From contig NZ_JNLQ01000002.1 of the NCBI RefSeq assembly GCF_000703165.1, positions 1,798,001-1,862,000 on the forward strand: a stretch of 64,000 bases of DNA, in the 5' to 3' direction. The notes beneath the pieces are model-generated. The model ran no database searches. It saw nothing but the letters and a program-made list of their open reading frames with translations, and was not told where the DNA came from. Every line of letters begins with the position of its first letter. The stretch's first letter is position 1. The position numbers and the translations under genes are program-made. Origin of the DNA: Butyrivibrio sp. AE3004 (GTDB taxonomy: Bacteria > Bacillota > Clostridia > Lachnospirales > Lachnospiraceae). Positions 4,881 to 27,757 of the stretch are shown here, piece by piece.

Positions 4881-6239
4881 TCAATCCTTGAACATGCTTG
4901 TCAGCTTGGCACAGACTTCCTCGTAAGTGAACTTTTCATCTGTCTCCTGCATAAGAAATTCATTTACTGCGTCTATCTTCGAAACAGCGTAATCAATACT
5001 TTTATTGGCACCGCTCTTATATGCTCCGATATTTATCAGGTCCTCAGCATCCGCATATGTTGCCAAAACATTTTTAAGTTTTCCCGCTGCTTTTTTCTGC
5101 TCCGGTGGAGCTATCGCGCTCATACATCTGGAAATACTTGCAAGAACATCTATAGCAGGGTAATGATTCTTCTGCGCCAGCTTTCTGTTTAATACAATAT
5201 GTCCATCAAGAATACCTCTTGCTGTATCTGTTATCGGTTCATTAAAATCATCACCATCAACAAGTACAGTATAAAGACCTGTAATCGATCCCTTTCTGGA
5301 TTTTCCAGCTCTTTCAAGAAGCTTGGGCATTTCCGCATATACGCTTGGCGGATACCCTCTCGATACCGGAGGCTCTCCGCTCGCAAGTCCTATTTCTCTT
5401 TGTGCCATTGAAAAACGTGTAAGAGAATCCATCATCAAAAGCACATCTTTTCCTTTATCACGAAAATATTCCGCAATGGATGTTGCTGTTTTTGCAGCCT
5501 TTAATCTTTCAAGTGCAGGTTTATCAGAAGTCGCAACAACAACAATCGACCTCTCCATTCCTTCAGGTCCAAGGTCACGTTCAATGAACTCCCGGACCTC
5601 CCTGCCACGCTCTCCGATAAGAGCAATAACATTTATATCCGCATTGGTGTTTCTGGCAAACATCCCCATCAGAGTTGATTTACCAACACCTGAACCTGCA
5701 AATATTCCAATTCGCTGCCCCTTACCTACTGTCAAAAGTCCGTCGACAGCTTTTACTCCAAGTGAAAGAACATCCGATATCGGATCTCTCGTCATAGGAT
5801 CCGGAGGCTGATTCTCAACAGAATAGGCTATACCGTTTTCAAGCATAACGCCCTTTCCATAGTTGGTACCATCTATTCTTCCAAGTCCATCAAGTGTTTT
5901 TCCAAGGAGTCCCTCTCCGACATTTACACGCAGGGGTGAATCAGTATTCTCGACTATGCTTCCGCTTCCTATTCCGCTTATGTTCTCATAGGGCATTAAG
6001 AGCACATGGTTATCCTTAAAACCGACAACCTCTGCCATGGTCCCCCTTCCGGAAGGTCTTGCCGTGCTTTCGCCGTCCTTTTTTTTGGAGTAAATGTAGC
6101 AAATATCACCCATCTTGGCCTCGGGGCCTGCAGATTCGATTGTAAGACCGACTACATTTACCACCTTGCCACGAACCTTATAGAACATGGTATTTGCTAC
6201 TTTTTTATATTTCGAATAGTCAATAAATCCATTTGCCAT
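4881..6239 (-). CDS. fliI: Flagellum-specific ATPase FliI
   Basis: FliI is the hexameric ATPase of the flagellar type III export apparatus, related to F1 beta subunits. The 452-residue protein is full length. A beta-barrel N-terminal domain ends near 110; the Walker A loop GSGVGKST is at about 182-189; ALIGERGREV and Walker B (VLLMMDSLTRF) follow; SGEPPVSRGYPPSV precedes the C-terminal domain. The start overlaps the fliH stop in TAATG. FliH inhibits and positions FliI, and FliJ completes the complex; all three are adjacent here. Confidence 0.97.
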   Translation of the reverse strand: MANGFIDYSKYKKVANTMFYKVRGKVVNVVGLTIESAGPEAKMGDICYIYSKKKDGESTARPSGRGTMAEVVGFKDNHVLLMPYENISGIGSGSIVENTDSPLRVNVGEGLLGKTLDGLGRIDGTNYGKGVMLENGIAYSVENQPPDPMTRDPISDVLSLGVKAVDGLLTVGKGQRIGIFAGSGVGKSTLMGMFARNTNADINVIALIGERGREVREFIERDLGPEGMERSIVVVATSDKPALERLKAAKTATSIAEYFRDKGKDVLLMMDSLTRFSMAQREIGLASGEPPVSRGYPPSVYAEMPKLLERAGKSRKGSITGLYTVLVDGDDFNEPITDTARGILDGHIVLNRKLAQKNHYPAIDVLASISRCMSAIAPPEQKKAAGKLKNVLATYADAEDLINIGAYKSGANKSIDYAVSKIDAVNEFLMQETDEKFTYEEVCAKLTSMFKD

Positions 6240-16386: not shown

Positions 16387-17352
16387 ATGCCGGGCACAAA
16401 AGAAAAAGTACTTGATTATCTTGAAAATAATCGCGGGAAATTTTCCTCAGGAGAAGCTATCGCAAATGAGCTGAATATTTCAAGAAACAGTGTCTGGAAA
16501 GCAATTGAATCCCTGCGAAGAGACGGTTTTTTGATAGAAGCGTCTTCCCGCAGGGGTTATTTTTTATCAGAGCGTTCCGATAAACTGACACTATCAGGCA
16601 TATCATCTCTTTTGAATGATGATATTGATCCTAATCTGATACAGATATTTGATTCCATAGATTCTACCAATAAAGCTGCAAAGCAGAAGGCTATTCAAGG
16701 CTGTCCTCACGGTTACACAGTTATTGCTCTTAAACAGACAAACGGCACAGGGAAAAGAAAAAGCAGTTTCACATCACCGGATGGCGGCATCTATATGAGC
16801 TTCGTTCTTAAACCTGAAGAATTACATATTTCAAACTCACAGCTTATAACCCCATTTACTGCTGTATCTATCTGCAAGGTTCTAGAAAAAGACGCATATC
16901 TGTCTCCATCAATAAAATGGATGAATGACATTTATCTAAGCGGCAAAAAAGTATGCGGTATTCTTGCAGAAATTAGTGCTGATTTTGACACCGGAGATAT
17001 TCAGTACATAGTAATTGGAGTAGGTATATATTTTAATAATGACGAAAAGTGTTTCCCTGCAGATCAAAAAGAAAGAATCGGAGCTGTATTTAAGCGAGGC
17101 GAAGAATCTATTACAAAAAATGAGTTTGTTGCAGGATTAATCAATGAATTATTGTCCAATAACACAAAAGACGACAGTGAAATTTTATCAGAATACCGCA
17201 GTCGTCTGAACATGCTTTCAAAAGATATAACAGTAATTTCCGGGGCAGATACCTACAAAGCTAAAGCTCTTGATGTTGATGAAAACGCTAAACTCATTGT
17301 TGAACTTCCGGATAAAACAAAAAAAGTTCTGTTTTCCGAAATAATTTGCTGA
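16387..17352 (+). CDS. birA: Bifunctional biotin-[acetyl-CoA-carboxylase] ligase / biotin operon repressor
   Basis: BirA activates biotin as biotinyl-AMP, attaches it to biotin-dependent carboxylases, and as holo-dimer represses biotin uptake or synthesis genes. The 321-residue protein is the long form: N-terminal winged HTH (about 1-65, FSSGEAIANELNISRNSVWK), catalytic domain (about 80-265, SIDSTNKAAKQKA, a TNGTGKRKSSFTSPDGGIYM loop and SIKWMNDIYLSGKKVCGIL), and a C-terminal SH3-like cap. The biotin-loop motif is TGKRK rather than the commoner GRGRxGR. Its operators lie upstream of bioY. Confidence 0.94.
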   Translation: MPGTKEKVLDYLENNRGKFSSGEAIANELNISRNSVWKAIESLRRDGFLIEASSRRGYFLSERSDKLTLSGISSLLNDDIDPNLIQIFDSIDSTNKAAKQKAIQGCPHGYTVIALKQTNGTGKRKSSFTSPDGGIYMSFVLKPEELHISNSQLITPFTAVSICKVLEKDAYLSPSIKWMNDIYLSGKKVCGILAEISADFDTGDIQYIVIGVGIYFNNDEKCFPADQKERIGAVFKRGEESITKNEFVAGLINELLSNNTKDDSEILSEYRSRLNMLSKDITVISGADTYKAKALDVDENAKLIVELPDKTKKVLFSEIIC

Positions 17353-21221: not shown

Positions 21222-21800
21222 TTACAATTCTATCCGTCTGCAGAAGTCAAGTCCTTCCAAATCATGTGAGGTTAGAAGAAGCGGATTTCGACCCTGTTTT
21301 TCACGAATGTACTCAATTGCCTTAAGTCTGTTTTCAATATCCAGACCTGTAAAAGGCTCATCCATTATAAGCATATCCGACGGTATCGAGCATGCTCTAA
21401 CAATGGCTACTCTCCTCTTCATTCCTCCGGAAAGCTGTGATACCGGTTTGTCGATCGCATCCTCCGGTAAAAGTCTCAGAAGCTCTTGTCTTACTACCTT
21501 AACCGAATTCTTTCGACCTACCATCACCACATTCTGAACTGCGGAAAAATCTTCACAAAGCCTGTTTTCCTGAAATACTACTCCGGCATTCAAGTATGGA
21601 TATTTATAATCCCCCATAAAATGCACTCTGCCGCTATCAGGTTCCTCAAGGCTTAGAAGAATTCTTATCAATGTAGTCTTGCCACTACCTGACTCTCCTG
21701 TTATCACATAAGAGTGATCATCCTCTATGCCGAGATTAAAATCCTTTAAAACATTCAGATTTCCGTAAGATTTACAGATATTTTCAAGATCAATTGTCAT
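21222..21800 (-). CDS. ABC transporter ATP-binding protein, SsuB/TauB type
   Basis: The nucleotide-binding subunit of a three-gene importer. Walker A GESGSGKTT, signature LSGGMKRRVAIVRA, Walker B MLIMDEPFTGLD and the switch histidine in LLTSHD are all visible. A longer frame opens at 21866, but AAGGAGG lies 6 bases before the ATG at 21800, giving 192 residues, slightly short for the family (about 240) because the C-terminus ends soon after the H-loop. It overlaps the permease gene by 11 bases. Confidence 0.92.
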   Translation of the reverse strand: MTIDLENICKSYGNLNVLKDFNLGIEDDHSYVITGESGSGKTTLIRILLSLEEPDSGRVHFMGDYKYPYLNAGVVFQENRLCEDFSAVQNVVMVGRKNSVKVVRQELLRLLPEDAIDKPVSQLSGGMKRRVAIVRACSIPSDMLIMDEPFTGLDIENRLKAIEYIREKQGRNPLLLTSHDLEGLDFCRRIEL

Positions 21801-22581
21801 TCTGTGCCTCCTTACAGATATTTTTGTCTTTATCAGAAGCACCGGGAACAAAAATCTTTCTGCCAAGTCTGATCAATAAATAAAATACCTTCTCTGTCAG
21901 CCATGATGCCAATACTATTGCAAAAGTCCATGCAAACACCTCAGCTGTATCAAGGTTAATCTTGGATCTGTATAATCCATTTCCCATAGTAAGCAGCGGC
22001 TGCCCTATTACCTCTGCCGCTGCGCCGCTCTTAAATCCCATTCCTACTGCAGTAGAAAACGCACCGAGATACGAAGGAATAAGCGCCGGAATATAAATAA
22101 ACCTTATCTTATTCGATGCCGGCATCCTGTAAACATGAGCCATTTCAAGAAGCTTAATATCAGCAGCTGTAAGCCCTCCTATCGTAGCCAGATAAATAAT
22201 AGGAAAAACCACAAGAGTTACTATTACCGTAGAAAGATTATCACTTCCTATCCATATTAAAACAAGAACAACAAAGCTTGCAACAGGAACCGATTTAATT
22301 ACTGTAACTATTGGTGATAAAAATTCTCCGATAATTTTTACCTTTAATGATAAAGCCCCAAGTATTATTCCTAAAACCGCACCAAATATTATTCCCAATG
22401 CAATATGTGCCACGGATGTTATTACTGATGCCGTAAAATCAGGAGTCTTTGCCATATTTATTAGAGCTGCAGCTGATTCTAAAGGACCTGCCAGAAGTAT
22501 TTTATTGTGGATGATAAGGGCTGCAAGCTGCCATACAATAATCCAGCAAACAGCAATGCCAATTTTTTTTACTGTCTTCAA
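21790..22581 (-). CDS. ABC transporter permease, SsuC/TauC type
   Basis: A 263-residue inner-membrane permease with about six membrane segments and the EAA-like cytoplasmic loop (IKLLEMAHVYRMPASNKIRFIYIPALIPSYLGA, about 137-170) that contacts the ATPase. The family carries sulfonate, taurine, nitrate or thiamine-precursor importers, and the sequence does not fix the substrate. It follows the binding-protein gene by 34 bases and overlaps the ATPase gene. Confidence 0.9.
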   Translation of the reverse strand: MKTVKKIGIAVCWIIVWQLAALIIHNKILLAGPLESAAALINMAKTPDFTASVITSVAHIALGIIFGAVLGIILGALSLKVKIIGEFLSPIVTVIKSVPVASFVVLVLIWIGSDNLSTVIVTLVVFPIIYLATIGGLTAADIKLLEMAHVYRMPASNKIRFIYIPALIPSYLGAFSTAVGMGFKSGAAAEVIGQPLLTMGNGLYRSKINLDTAEVFAWTFAIVLASWLTEKVFYLLIRLGRKIFVPGASDKDKNICKEAQNDN

Positions 22582-22615
22582 ATCAAATCCCCCACAAAAG
22601 ATTTATGTTCAAATA

Positions 22616-23725
22616 TCAGTCAAATGTATAGAAATCATCCTCAGGAAGTTTTCCACCTACAGACTTGGGATCACTGTCAAAAAGAACCTGAAGATAACCT
22701 GAAAGCGCTGTTTTTGCTTCATCTCCGATAATACAAACAATATTGCACTCAGGCATCGCCTTTTTTGCTATCTCAGCTTTTTCAATAATTCCGTATTCAG
22801 CAACAAGTGCTGCAGTTCCATCAAGATCGGATGATGCTTTATCTGTACTTGCCTGATGCTCTGAAATAAATGTATTTACAGCATCAGTATTATCCTTAAG
22901 GAAATCATTTCTTACTATTGTAACGCCTGTAAGAAGTTTTGAATCGTCAGAAACAGCATCCCACTCATCTGTAAGACTAAAAGCAACGGAAAGTGCTTCA
23001 TTTTTAGCTGTTGCAACTGCAACAAAAGGCTGAGGAAGAATTGCAATCTTAGAAGCATCCTCCTGAAGAAGCGCTGCAATCTCTGTTGCCTCTGATTTAA
23101 ATTCGATTGTGCAATCTGTAACTTCATTTTTCTCTAACAGATATCTGAGAACATATTCAGGAGAAGCCCCCTGTCCTGTTGTAACAACTGTTTTACCTGC
23201 AAGATCCTTAACGCTCTTAACGTTCTCATCACCGGTCAAACAATACAAAACACCAAGAGTATTAATATCGACAAGGCTTACTCCGCCTTCAGTTTTATTG
23301 TAAAGAACGGCTGCCATATTTGCAGGAACAAGCGCTATATCAATATTGCCTGCAACCATGCCTGCCATTAGTTCATCGGGTTGTGTAGCCATTGTAAACT
23401 CATATGAGCCCTTGGACTCACCATTCTCGGAAGCCTTCATAAGATTTACAAGTCCCATAGTTGTGGGTCCTTTGAGAGATCCAACTCTGATAACAGATGA
23501 ATCAGCAACAGACTCATCGTTTTCTTCATTCGTAGCTGATTCTTCTACGTTTTCTTTATCATCAGCTGTCTTATCTTCAGCAGATTCTGTGCTATCGGAT
23601 TCAATCTGAGTTTCTTCCTGTACCTCTTCCTGAACCTGTGCTGAATCAGCGTTATTATTACCACATCCGGTCAAAGCTGTTACTCCAAGTACAAAAGCAC
23701 TTGTGATAGCTAAAAATTTCTTCAT
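22616..23725 (-). CDS. ABC transporter substrate-binding lipoprotein (SsuA/TauA/NMT1-like)
   Basis: The extracellular binding subunit of the importer. An ATG at 23743 exists, but an AGGAG site lies 6 bases before the ATG at 23725, which begins a lipoprotein signal (MKKFLAITSAFVLGVTALTG then Cys). A Glu/Asp/Ser/Thr-rich linker (about 25-75) precedes the periplasmic-binding fold with VGSLKGPTTMGLVNLMKA and GKTVVTTGQGASPEYVLRYLL, typical of the NMT1/SsuA group. The substrate is unknown. Its promoter contains a perfect palindrome. Confidence 0.88.
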   Translation of the reverse strand: MKKFLAITSAFVLGVTALTGCGNNNADSAQVQEEVQEETQIESDSTESAEDKTADDKENVEESATNEENDESVADSSVIRVGSLKGPTTMGLVNLMKASENGESKGSYEFTMATQPDELMAGMVAGNIDIALVPANMAAVLYNKTEGGVSLVDINTLGVLYCLTGDENVKSVKDLAGKTVVTTGQGASPEYVLRYLLEKNEVTDCTIEFKSEATEIAALLQEDASKIAILPQPFVAVATAKNEALSVAFSLTDEWDAVSDDSKLLTGVTIVRNDFLKDNTDAVNTFISEHQASTDKASSDLDGTAALVAEYGIIEKAEIAKKAMPECNIVCIIGDEAKTALSGYLQVLFDSDPKSVGGKLPEDDFYTFD

Positions 23726-23777
23726 AAACTTCTCCTTCATCACTTATTCAATTTTATTTCATACGCAAAACGCTAAT

Positions 23778-23829: not shown

Positions 23830-23858
23830 TTGACGAAAATGCGCTTATTTGCTATTTT
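23830..23858 (+). promoter_or_regulatory. Promoter of the Mn2+ riboswitch transcript
   Basis: TTGACG (23830-23835), a 17-base spacer and TATTTT (23853-23858) with TGC before the -10. The start would fall near 23865, exactly at the riboswitch. Confidence 0.75.
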
Positions 23859-23865
23859 ATTATAG

Positions 23866-23962
23866 GTAAAAGGGAGTAGTTGTCATGCATATGCATGTAG
23901 CATTTATCCGTCAATACGGGAAGATGATTCCCCGGATGTGTCGTAATTAACGAGACTTTTAC
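23866..23962 (+). promoter_or_regulatory. yybP-ykoY (Mn2+) riboswitch aptamer
   Basis: The segment fits the manganese riboswitch consensus by eye. The 5' strand GTAAAAGGGAGTAG begins the aptamer; the internal loop CGTCAATACGGGAA pairs into TTCCCCGG, and the 3' strand CGAGACTTTTAC ends it. The closing helix P1 is GTAAAAG (23866-23872) with CTTTTAC (23956-23962). The 3' strand of P1 is shared with the following terminator, so folding of the aptamer on Mn2+ binding should prevent termination (an ON switch). Confidence 0.85.
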
Positions 23963-23993
23963 TGCATGTATCTGCAGTATTTGTCTCTTTTTT
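23952..23993 (+). terminator. Expression-platform terminator of the Mn2+ riboswitch
   Basis: GAGAC (23952-23956) pairs with GTCTC (23983-23987), enclosing an ACTGCA/TGCAGT stem, followed by six T residues. It is mutually exclusive with aptamer helix P1. Confidence 0.85.
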
Positions 23994-24095
23994 ATTGCGG
24001 TTTATCATGCACGGCACTTTACTTAACCCAAATTCCTTGTATCTTTTTACCCAAAAGAAATAATGGAATTCAAACCACTTCGAAAGGAACAAAAC

Positions 24096-25364
24096 ATGAA
24101 AACTCTTGCAATCATCTTATTTGTAGCCATGTACATTGGCTTAATCGTTTTTCCCAAAAAGCGTGCTTACATAGCGCTTGGTGTAGCAGCAATTTATATT
24201 GTTACGGGAATTCTTCCATACAACACGGTTCTTTCTGTTGTTGACTGGAATGTCCTGTTAATGATTTTCGGAACATTGCTGCTTGTGGATTATTTTATCG
24301 AATCAAAAATGCCAAATCTTATTGCCGACCATCTTCTCGACCTGGCGCCCAATGTAATGTGGGTAACTATTTACATGTCGCTGTTCTCAGGCCTTATTTC
24401 CGCCTTTATAGACAATGTTGCCACACTCCTTATGGTTGCACCTGTCGGTCTTGCTATTTGTAAAAAATTAAAGATCAATCCTGTTCCTATGATCATATCA
24501 ATTGCAGTATCATCAAATCTCCAGGGTGCAGCCACTCTTGTCGGTGACACAACCTCTATCATGCTTGGTGCTTATGCAAAAATGGACTTCAATGATTTCT
24601 TCTGGATGAACGGAAGACCCGGTATTTTCTTTGCGGTCGAGCTCGGTGCACTTCTTACTGTTCCGATCATGATGATACTCTTCAGGAAAGACAAAGAGCC
24701 TGTTTCCGCAACAGAAAAAACAGTAGTAAAGGATTATGTTCCTACAATTATGATGATAGCTCACGTCGTACTTCTTATGGGAGCTTCATTCATTCCCGAT
24801 AAGCCGGAGATTACAAACGGTATGATTTGTCTTATCTGCTCACTTATAGGAATTGTTTGGGAATACTTCAAGGATCACGATACGGAACGTATCAAAAAAG
24901 TTGTTAAAAACCTTGACTATGACACAGTTCTCCTTCTTACCGGTCTTTTCATGGTAATAGGAGGAATTACTCATATGGGTCTTGTTGATGACCTTGCAGC
25001 CCTTATTGTAAAGGCAGGCGGAAATAATCTGTTTGTACTTTTCACTATCGTTGTTTGGGGATCTGTACTTATCTCCGCATTCATCGATAATATTCCTTAT
25101 GTAGCAACAATGCTCCCTGTTCTTCAGGGCGTTACAGCATCACTTGGCATTGCTCCATACCTGCTTTACTTTGGACTTCTCTGCGGAGCAACACTTGGTG
25201 GAAACATAACTCCTGTAGGAGCAAGCTGCAATATAGCAGGTGTTGGTATGCTCAGGAAAGAAGGCTACGAAGTAAGCTTTAAAGATTTCACAAGGATAGG
25301 TATTCCTTTCACACTTGCTGCCGTTATCGGTGCTTACGTATTTTTGTGGGTACTTTGGAGATAA
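24096..25364 (+). CDS. ArsB/NhaD/SLC13-type permease under Mn2+ riboswitch control
   Basis: A 422-residue integral membrane protein of the ion transporter superfamily (ArsB/NhaD/CitMHS/SLC13), with about ten or more membrane segments. Two inverted-repeat halves carry matching motifs: ISAFIDNVATLLMVAP with LVGDTTSIMLG in the first half and ISAFIDNIPYVATMLP with LGGNITPVGAS in the second. These family members move Na+, arsenite or dicarboxylates. The riboswitch upstream suggests relief of manganese excess, so Mn2+ efflux is a reasonable hypothesis, not a demonstrated function. AAAGGA lies 7 bases before the chosen ATG; an upstream ATG at 24063 lacks a site. Confidence 0.85.
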   Translation: MKTLAIILFVAMYIGLIVFPKKRAYIALGVAAIYIVTGILPYNTVLSVVDWNVLLMIFGTLLLVDYFIESKMPNLIADHLLDLAPNVMWVTIYMSLFSGLISAFIDNVATLLMVAPVGLAICKKLKINPVPMIISIAVSSNLQGAATLVGDTTSIMLGAYAKMDFNDFFWMNGRPGIFFAVELGALLTVPIMMILFRKDKEPVSATEKTVVKDYVPTIMMIAHVVLLMGASFIPDKPEITNGMICLICSLIGIVWEYFKDHDTERIKKVVKNLDYDTVLLLTGLFMVIGGITHMGLVDDLAALIVKAGGNNLFVLFTIVVWGSVLISAFIDNIPYVATMLPVLQGVTASLGIAPYLLYFGLLCGATLGGNITPVGASCNIAGVGMLRKEGYEVSFKDFTRIGIPFTLAAVIGAYVFLWVLWR

Positions 25365-27434: not shown

Positions 27435-27757
27435 GTTACACCTCCGTTTTTTGCAGAAGATAAAAAAAATCCATCTTCCGCAATCTGTAATTGATTACGA
27501 AGGACGGAGTCTAATCCGTGTTACCACCTTCATTTACATACAGTTCACACTGTATGCCTCAGCAAGTACTTTAGGAAAATTCCTATTATACTCTTCCGAC
27601 TGACGCCTCGGTTCTCGTCGCGGCTTACTAGATGCAAAATCATTTTTCCGCGAAGCTCCGGGAGGTATTCGTTTGTAGCCCTCTTCCGCGCCTCTCACCA
27701 AACGGCTGCTCTCTGTGGTCGGTACTAAAAACTACTTATTCCCTTCAAAGCCTTTAC
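27435..27757 (-). promoter_or_regulatory. Tyrosine T-box leader of tyrS
   Basis: The T-box sequence AAGGTGGTAACACGG (27516-27530, minus strand) pairs through AAGG/CCTT and ACGG/CCGT with CCGTCCTT (27500-27507) to form the antiterminator. The competing terminator is a 15-base stem with 14 pairs (27471-27485 / 27493-27507) followed by eight T residues. A likely Tyr specifier TAC (27665-27667, in GAATACC) and an AGAGAG motif lie in Stem I. Uncharged tRNA-Tyr should allow read-through into tyrS and the HAD gene. Confidence 0.92.

Follow-up and report, generated by a model that had tools for sequence, protein, structure and literature searches.

A manganese-type riboswitch overlooked by Rfam precedes a candidate Mn2+ exporter of the ion transporter superfamily in Butyrivibrio

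The stretch of Butyrivibrio sp. AE3004 DNA analysed here (contig NZ_JNLQ01000002.1, positions 1,798,001 to 1,862,000; 64,000 nucleotides, hereafter the window) carries on its forward strand a regulatory leader followed by a permease gene, whose best start, 24096, lies 33 bases inside a 433-codon open reading frame and behind the motif GAAAGGA. The features on which the argument rests are the following.

23830..23858, plus strand: sigma-70-like promoter, TTGACG, 17 nt, TATTTT, with transcription expected to start at about 23866
23866..23963, plus strand: manganese (yybP-ykoY-type) riboswitch aptamer, from covariance model R1 and pair counts
23866-23872 paired with 23956-23962, plus strand: helix P1.1, GTAAAAG/CTTTTAC, from the sequence
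23872-23879, plus strand: aptamer loop L1, GGGAGUAG, read in the window as GGGAGTAG
23880-23882/23948-23950, plus strand: aptamer helix P1.2
23884-23888/23893-23897, plus strand: aptamer helix P2
23906-23910/23933-23937, plus strand: aptamer helix P3.1
23911-23917, plus strand: L3, within GTCAATAC (23910-23917)
23913, plus strand: adenosine corresponding to the Mn-discriminating A41 of L. lactis and A48 of X. oryzae, an A in 11/11 rows of alignment A3
23918-23922/23928-23932, plus strand: helix P3.2, a GGGAA/TTCCC hairpin (23918-23932), from the sequence
23951-23956, plus strand: CGAGAC, the strand leading back to P1.1
23952..23993, plus strand: expression platform, a T-tailed terminator whose 5' arm includes the P1.1 3' strand, from sequence and folding
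24082..24088, plus strand: ribosome-binding site GAAAGGA, from the sequence
24096..25364, plus strand: 422-aa ArsB/NhaD/SLC13 (ion transporter superfamily) permease, a candidate Mn2+ exporter

Divergent from the riboswitch, the minus strand carries ABC importer genes (NMT1-like binding protein, permease and ATPase; 21222-23743), a set that adjoins the permease in G020 and G005 only among the 17 relatives' loci compared. Also on the minus strand, at 27497-27757, lies a T-box leader (RF00230, 95.4 bits), and the gene behind it is presumably a tyrosyl-tRNA synthetase.

The initial annotation of this DNA had placed a promoter exactly at the aptamer. A -35/-10-like pair does stand directly upstream; in the window alone such pairs are at chance level (6 found versus 6.1 expected, with 24 of 300 shuffles equally good), but a promoter-like pair matching 9-11 of 12 positions ends 4-16 bases upstream of the aptamer in 13 of the 15 permease leaders, and none was found in the remaining two, L007 and L017. 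At the other end, the terminator hairpin (23952-23987, -17.1 kcal/mol) is followed by six T, and a terminator with a T run that overlaps the aptamer is clear in 12 of the 15 leaders (not in L028, L040 and L048). Because the P1.1 3' strand lies inside the 5' arm of the hairpin, aptamer and terminator are mutually exclusive, which bears out the ON logic proposed from the reuse of this strand in a T-tailed terminator; the manganese riboswitch of L. lactis is described as working by the same logic (PMC11087558). When the leader is folded over its whole length, the structure of lowest energy pairs the P1 5' strand with the U run of the terminator; we treated this as an artefact, since the folded transcript would already have terminated.

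Every element of the yybP-ykoY consensus described in the initial annotation is present in the window sequence, and the P1/L1/P2/P3-L3 architecture, with its L1 GGGAGUAG and its L3, is supported by covariation. The Rfam model of this class, RF00080 (named Manganese in the release used; gathering cut-off 45 bits), gave no match on the window at gathering and none on 421 or 105 bases at E<=10, E-values in these last searches being multiplied by 4227 families; the two matches that it has in the organism's own genome at E<=10 both lie away from the leader. When applied to this genome and 60 relatives, RF00080 reached E<=0.001 in 3 of 61 genomes; at E<=10 it matched 12 of 15 (the own genome and the 14 with a riboswitch-permease pair), and on neither occasion did a match exceed the cut-off. 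One of its matches (G071, 10.1 bits) agrees in position with the L043 leader; the permease leaders L081, L043 and L049 were unreported at E<=1, and L003 (30.3 bits) as well as the MntP leader L119 (19.6 bits) were scored below the cut-off. A weak match to another model, SSRC10 (13.8 bits), was not used as evidence, though its printed consensus resembles the aptamer and an MntP leader, too, is matched by SSRC10 at a sub-cut-off score (28.5 against 56 bits). A covariance score below threshold, which the initial annotation had named as refuting its proposal, is therefore literally what Rfam returns, and we trace this miss to the Rfam model because a lineage-built covariance model, R1, matches 34 of the 61 genomes as well as the mntP leader of E. 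coli.

R1 derives from 11 leaders (the window, L007, L008, L010, L011, L017, L019, L020, L025, L043 and L081), onto whose alignment the structure was written by hand, and its E-values are rough. L028, L040, L048 and L049 did not enter the training set because alignments with L040, L049 and, once, L048 misplaced P2/P3. In the 11 leaders the hand structure pairs 93.4% of cells and both sides change in 16 of 25 pairs, such two-sided changes being seen in all five aptamer helices. The covariation score is 0.545 versus 0.289 in shuffles, and the shuffles that matched our five covariation measures numbered 0 of 500 for four and 4 of 500 for the fifth; slid structures pair 34-45% of cells, a comparison biased towards the hand structure, which was derived from the same sequences. 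Over 84 sources (597 kb), R1 found the four untrained permease leaders at 39-45 bits and the sub-threshold RF00080 matches L001-L003 at 27-46 bits, and beyond these and its training rows it gave no match at E<=1. On the mntP region of E. coli K-12 (3001 bases, filters off), it gave nine matches at E<=10, among which the mntP leader scores highest, with 20.3 bits and E 4.9e-5, and the runner-up has 12.5 bits. As the E. coli mntP riboswitch is a proven Mn2+ switch (PMC7266159), this match ties the permease leaders by homology to an experimentally proven Mn2+ riboswitch. Across the 61 genomes R1 gives 43 matches at E<=0.1, spread over 34 genomes (33 at E<=0.001); the own genome has a single match and no genome more than three. 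In the class-wide set it matches 157 of 391 genomes at E<=0.001 under strict filters.

Sequence and covariation show the leader at 23866-23963 to be a genuine yybP-ykoY (manganese) riboswitch. With the RF00080 class it shares L1 GGGAGUAG, an L3 carrying the discriminator A, the CAAGAC/CGAGAC strand, a P1 common to the terminator and a position upstream of Mn exporter genes, whereas it differs in being missed by RF00080 at every threshold tried, in its compact form without a clear P4 and in having an L3 of the L. lactis kind. The RNA thus belongs to a known class, as a variant of this lineage that Rfam overlooks, and we regard it as very probably a Mn-type switch.

Family membership likewise points to Mn2+ as the ligand. 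Both solved aptamers, from L. lactis and X. oryzae, bind Mn2+ at one common site, where A41 or A48 contacts the ion through N7 (PMC6754395). When L3 is sorted into two kinds, a sorting of our own, the X. oryzae-like kind is found in MntP (4/4) and GDT1 (2/2) leaders and the L. lactis-like GUCA kind in those of the permease (21/21), OadB (20/21), the exchanger (26/28) and P-ATPase (11/14). L3 type therefore sorts with the class of the downstream gene, as might be expected if the leader were a yybP-type variant with a changed ligand, for instance Ca2+ or another divalent ion, which the permease would then export; we keep this rival because, according to a review, other divalent ions are probably the ligands of some yybP RNAs (PMC7266159). 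It nevertheless appears improbable to us, given that the L. lactis aptamer of the same loop type binds Mn2+ via A41 (PMC6754395), that the switch on a B. pertussis exchanger is sensitive to Mn, calcium having no effect (PMC8546581), and that an S. pneumoniae switch on a Mn2+/Ca2+ ATPase is termed Mn-sensing in a cited title.

How firmly is this Mn-type RNA tied to the permease? Within the genus, the permease occurs in 30 of 37 genomes (31 copies), and R1 lies directly upstream of 19 copies. Leader and gene stand together in Butyrivibrio hungatei and B. proteoclasticus, for instance (L019, L025). The other 12 stand without it, some of them (L004, L005) at 90-91% identity; with filters off, R1 gave only weak matches of 11-12 bits at three riboswitch-less permease loci and two others, and one of these matches, at L200, falls within the stretch of the permease itself. 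Loss of the aptamer in close relatives, put forward beforehand as a ground for refutation, is therefore partly seen, with 19 of 31 copies keeping the riboswitch. At 80 named-genome loci selected solely for the likeness of their protein to the permease (the best of 589 confirmed), R1 is upstream of 14 and absent from 66, two of the latter having fewer than 70 bases upstream. The pair also occurs far from the clade of the window (L081, L043, L049, L040/L048), as well as in G283, of another family, where the permease shows 49% identity. Among the 31 genomes of the class set with a permease ortholog at >=48% identity, R1 is adjacent in at least 4 of 6 genus genomes and at least 1 of 25 outside the genus (G283) among the matches listed under strict filters, nine candidates per genome being scored, so that these linkage counts are a lower bound; this class survey speaks against a tight riboswitch-permease link outside the genus.

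A tree of 81 permeases, 15 of them with the riboswitch, requires 11 changes of this label, 9 of them forced by well-supported branches, which means that gains, losses or moves are frequent; the label is only weakly clustered, with 14.0 changes in shuffles and 12 of 500 shuffles as low. Flanks were compared in 7 riboswitch-permease relatives: the neighbours of the window are shared by G020 and G005 only, G005 having its permease in the opposite orientation to these flanks. Since the pair is kept though the flanks differ, the neighbours are not what holds riboswitch and permease together. One could still suppose an incidental linkage, a permease with an unrelated job that happens to stand beside the riboswitch, as the absence of the RNA from many orthologs and its frequent gain or loss would allow. 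Against this, an RNA that R1 matches at most three times in any of the 61 genomes lies directly before the permease in 19 of 31 genus copies and also in separate lineages, most of these leaders having retained promoter and terminator, and the pair recurs across different genomic contexts; we consider mere chance very improbable.

The genes behind the other R1 matches give the RNA its wider context. Downstream of the 43 matches in the 61 genomes are the permease (19), Na_Ca_ex exchangers (10), flotillin-like genes (4), P-ATPases (3), MntP (2), GDT1 (UPF0016; 2), an MBOAT protein (1) and a Pfam-less membrane protein (1), the last match, a weak one (E 0.064), having an unrelated gene behind it. 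Of the 24 non-permease rows, 18 were searched with Pfam; three further exchangers come from a family search, and two flotillin-like rows and the weak row were named by likeness. The flotillin/SPFH-type genes stand directly behind R1 at L112, L116, L117 and L118 (genomes G021, G002, G019 and G043; Pfam for L112 and L118, likeness for L116 and L117). In G011, two facing R1 matches 3.8 kb apart (L115:1291-1399 and 5190-5297), with an L3 lacking the usual GUCA, precede the MBOAT acyltransferase and the Pfam-less membrane protein.

For the class level, 60 R1 regions were taken, namely the strongest matches not already examined together with G283 and G209, and by similarity they precede Na_Ca_ex (18), P-ATPase (11), MntP (2), permease (2) and other genes (27). 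OadB-like genes account for 21 of these 27, four being OAD_beta by Pfam and 17 showing 57-81% identity to one of the four (one of the 17 is a fragment cut by the contig); they lie at L127, L131-L133, L139, L141-L143, L145-L147, L150, L151, L156, L159, L160, L162, L166, L171, L172 and L181. OadB belongs to the Na+-transporting decarboxylase beta family, and in 20 of the 21 regions no other decarboxylase subunits were recognised (longest open frame, 0.3-1.0 kb downstream). An OadB gene behind a manganese-type riboswitch may represent another exporter family. The genes behind R1 at L155, L173 and L178 resemble secreted polysaccharide lyases, the one at L155 being without a Pfam match. In G182, two same-strand matches 300 bases apart (C199:16059-16168 and 16469-16578) are possible tandem manganese riboswitches. 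R1-type RNA hence precedes several known Mn exporter classes and also some genes without a known Mn role; the OadB, flotillin-like and lyase-like targets are not obviously Mn-related, which we count against reading the permease as a Mn2+ exporter.

In the genus, permease and exchanger show an either/or pattern. Of the 20 genomes with a completeness of at least 90%, 17 carry the permease without an intact Na_Ca_ex and three (G008, G014, G025) show the reverse (17/0 versus 0/3, Fisher 0.0009, ignoring kinship), and in all 37 genus genomes the figures are 1/29 versus 4/3 (Fisher 0.0025, again ignoring kinship). The exception is G026, in which both genes are present and the exchanger is the one with the riboswitch; the permease-bearing genomes G012 and G013 contain only fragmentary exchanger genes, and one sub-cut-off exchanger match in G007 was counted as none. 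In the four genus genomes with an exchanger riboswitch, none was found on a permease. An in-place swap of exchanger for permease was rejected, as 0 of the 4 genus riboswitch-exchanger loci share the neighbours of the window, one matching its flanks only by a distant ABC ATPase (27%). A close parallel is BP3410, the Ca2+:cation exchanger of B. pertussis, whose intact form is a reported Mn exporter and whose expression requires Mn2+ and an intact yybP-ykoY aptamer, calcium being without effect (PMC8546581). There too the same kind of switch controls a secondary transporter, and PF01699 exchangers stand in the place of the permease in some genus genomes; PF01699 is, however, unrelated to CitMHS/ArsB, and the genus exchangers are likened to BP3410 by family only. 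The gene yrbG is among those predicted under yybP-ykoY control in V. vulnificus (PMC13274385, 2026), and the Ca2+:cation exchanger (YRBG) appears in a table of bacterial Mn exporters with CDF, MntP, UPF0016, TerC and P-ATPase (PMC9936198); in the portion of that table available to us, no ArsB/SLC13-type entry was seen.

The own genome also encodes an MntP (L204:691-2052, minus strand, 453 aa), consisting of an MntP domain and about 260 residues without a Pfam match, a part with a possible likeness to the ZIP metal transporter motif H..PEG. The R1 riboswitch is absent from this MntP gene, a point that we hold against the exporter reading of the permease.

The protein itself was assigned in the initial annotation to the ion transporter superfamily, and this stands: its predicted fold is the ArsB/SLC13 fold, the closest solved folds are ArsB and DASS carriers, and Pfam at E<=0.001 returns CitMHS, ArsB and DctM only, the known Mn2+ exporter families (CDF, MntP, UPF0016/GDT1, TerC, P-ATPase, Na_Ca_ex) being unmatched at that threshold. 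These matches, together with the occurrence behind this type of RNA of OadB-like genes, whose family transports Na+, are what one would expect if the switch sensed Mn2+ and the permease moved something else in an accessory role in Mn stress, whether Na+/H+, a carboxylate or citrate-metal complex, or arsenite; indeed the solved fold relatives carry arsenite, carboxylates and sulfate, which counts against Mn2+ export. On the other hand, the permease reaches none of the curated cut-offs for such substrates, be it NCBIfam ArsB (58.9/760, 57.4/457 and 49/415 bits), DASS TIGR00785 (68.8/198.6 bits) or NhaD (38.1/80 bits). Membership among arsenite efflux permeases was accordingly rejected. The permease is 15% identical to the ArsB structure 10tp and has D-N/D-N where ArsB aligns A-N/N-N in profile alignments; as to the DASS/SLC13 Na+-anion symporters, the S-N motif of VcINDY aligns, again by profile, to D106-N107. 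The top-scoring NCBIfam family is the magnetosome transporter MamN (87.8 bits), whose 500-bit cut-off is not reached. The pairs D106-N107 and D331-N332 show no variation (52 of 52) and would suit a cation. With the near-exclusive occurrence of permease and exchanger in the genus, these features make another substrate rather unlikely in our view, if less so than a changed ligand.

We therefore favour, with a probability of roughly 0.6, the reading that the riboswitch is an ON switch for Mn2+ and governs a secondary-active permease through which Mn2+ in the cytoplasm is lowered. Transcription would begin at the aptamer and, when Mn2+ is lacking, the terminator hairpin would capture the P1.1 3' strand and stop it before the gene. 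Upon a rise in Mn2+, the ion would be bound between L1 and L3 with the participation of adenosine 23913, P1.1 would be stabilised, the terminator blocked and the permease made. The latter, with its ArsB fold and one aspartate-asparagine pair per repeat, would most likely export Mn2+ in exchange for H+ or Na+; substrate, direction and coupling ion are what we infer from sequence and context, and it seems somewhat probable that the permease itself is the exporter. The suggestion of a new Mn2+ exporter made at the outset is thus favoured by the recurrent linkage and by the either/or pattern with the exchanger, and the exporter remains a candidate. As far as our searches show, the permease is new as a target of a manganese riboswitch: no paper was recognised, in the parts of the literature available, as tying this permease family to manganese, and a mention elsewhere is possible.

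It is tempting to go further and to suppose that the ion transporter superfamily contains a D-N/D-N clade of dedicated Mn2+ exporters, riboswitch-controlled in several lineages of Clostridia and replacing exporters of the Na/Ca type, with the OadB-like proteins as a further family by the same argument; this generalisation is tentative, and we would put it at somewhat less than even odds. If true, bacterial Mn exporters would gain a superfamily known for the transport of arsenite and of carboxylates/sulfate, and manganese riboswitches could reveal exporters overlooked by protein annotation. The contrast between the 3 of 61 genomes matched by RF00080 and the 33 of 61 matched by R1, both at E<=0.001, suggests moreover that manganese regulation in Clostridia is probably under-annotated.
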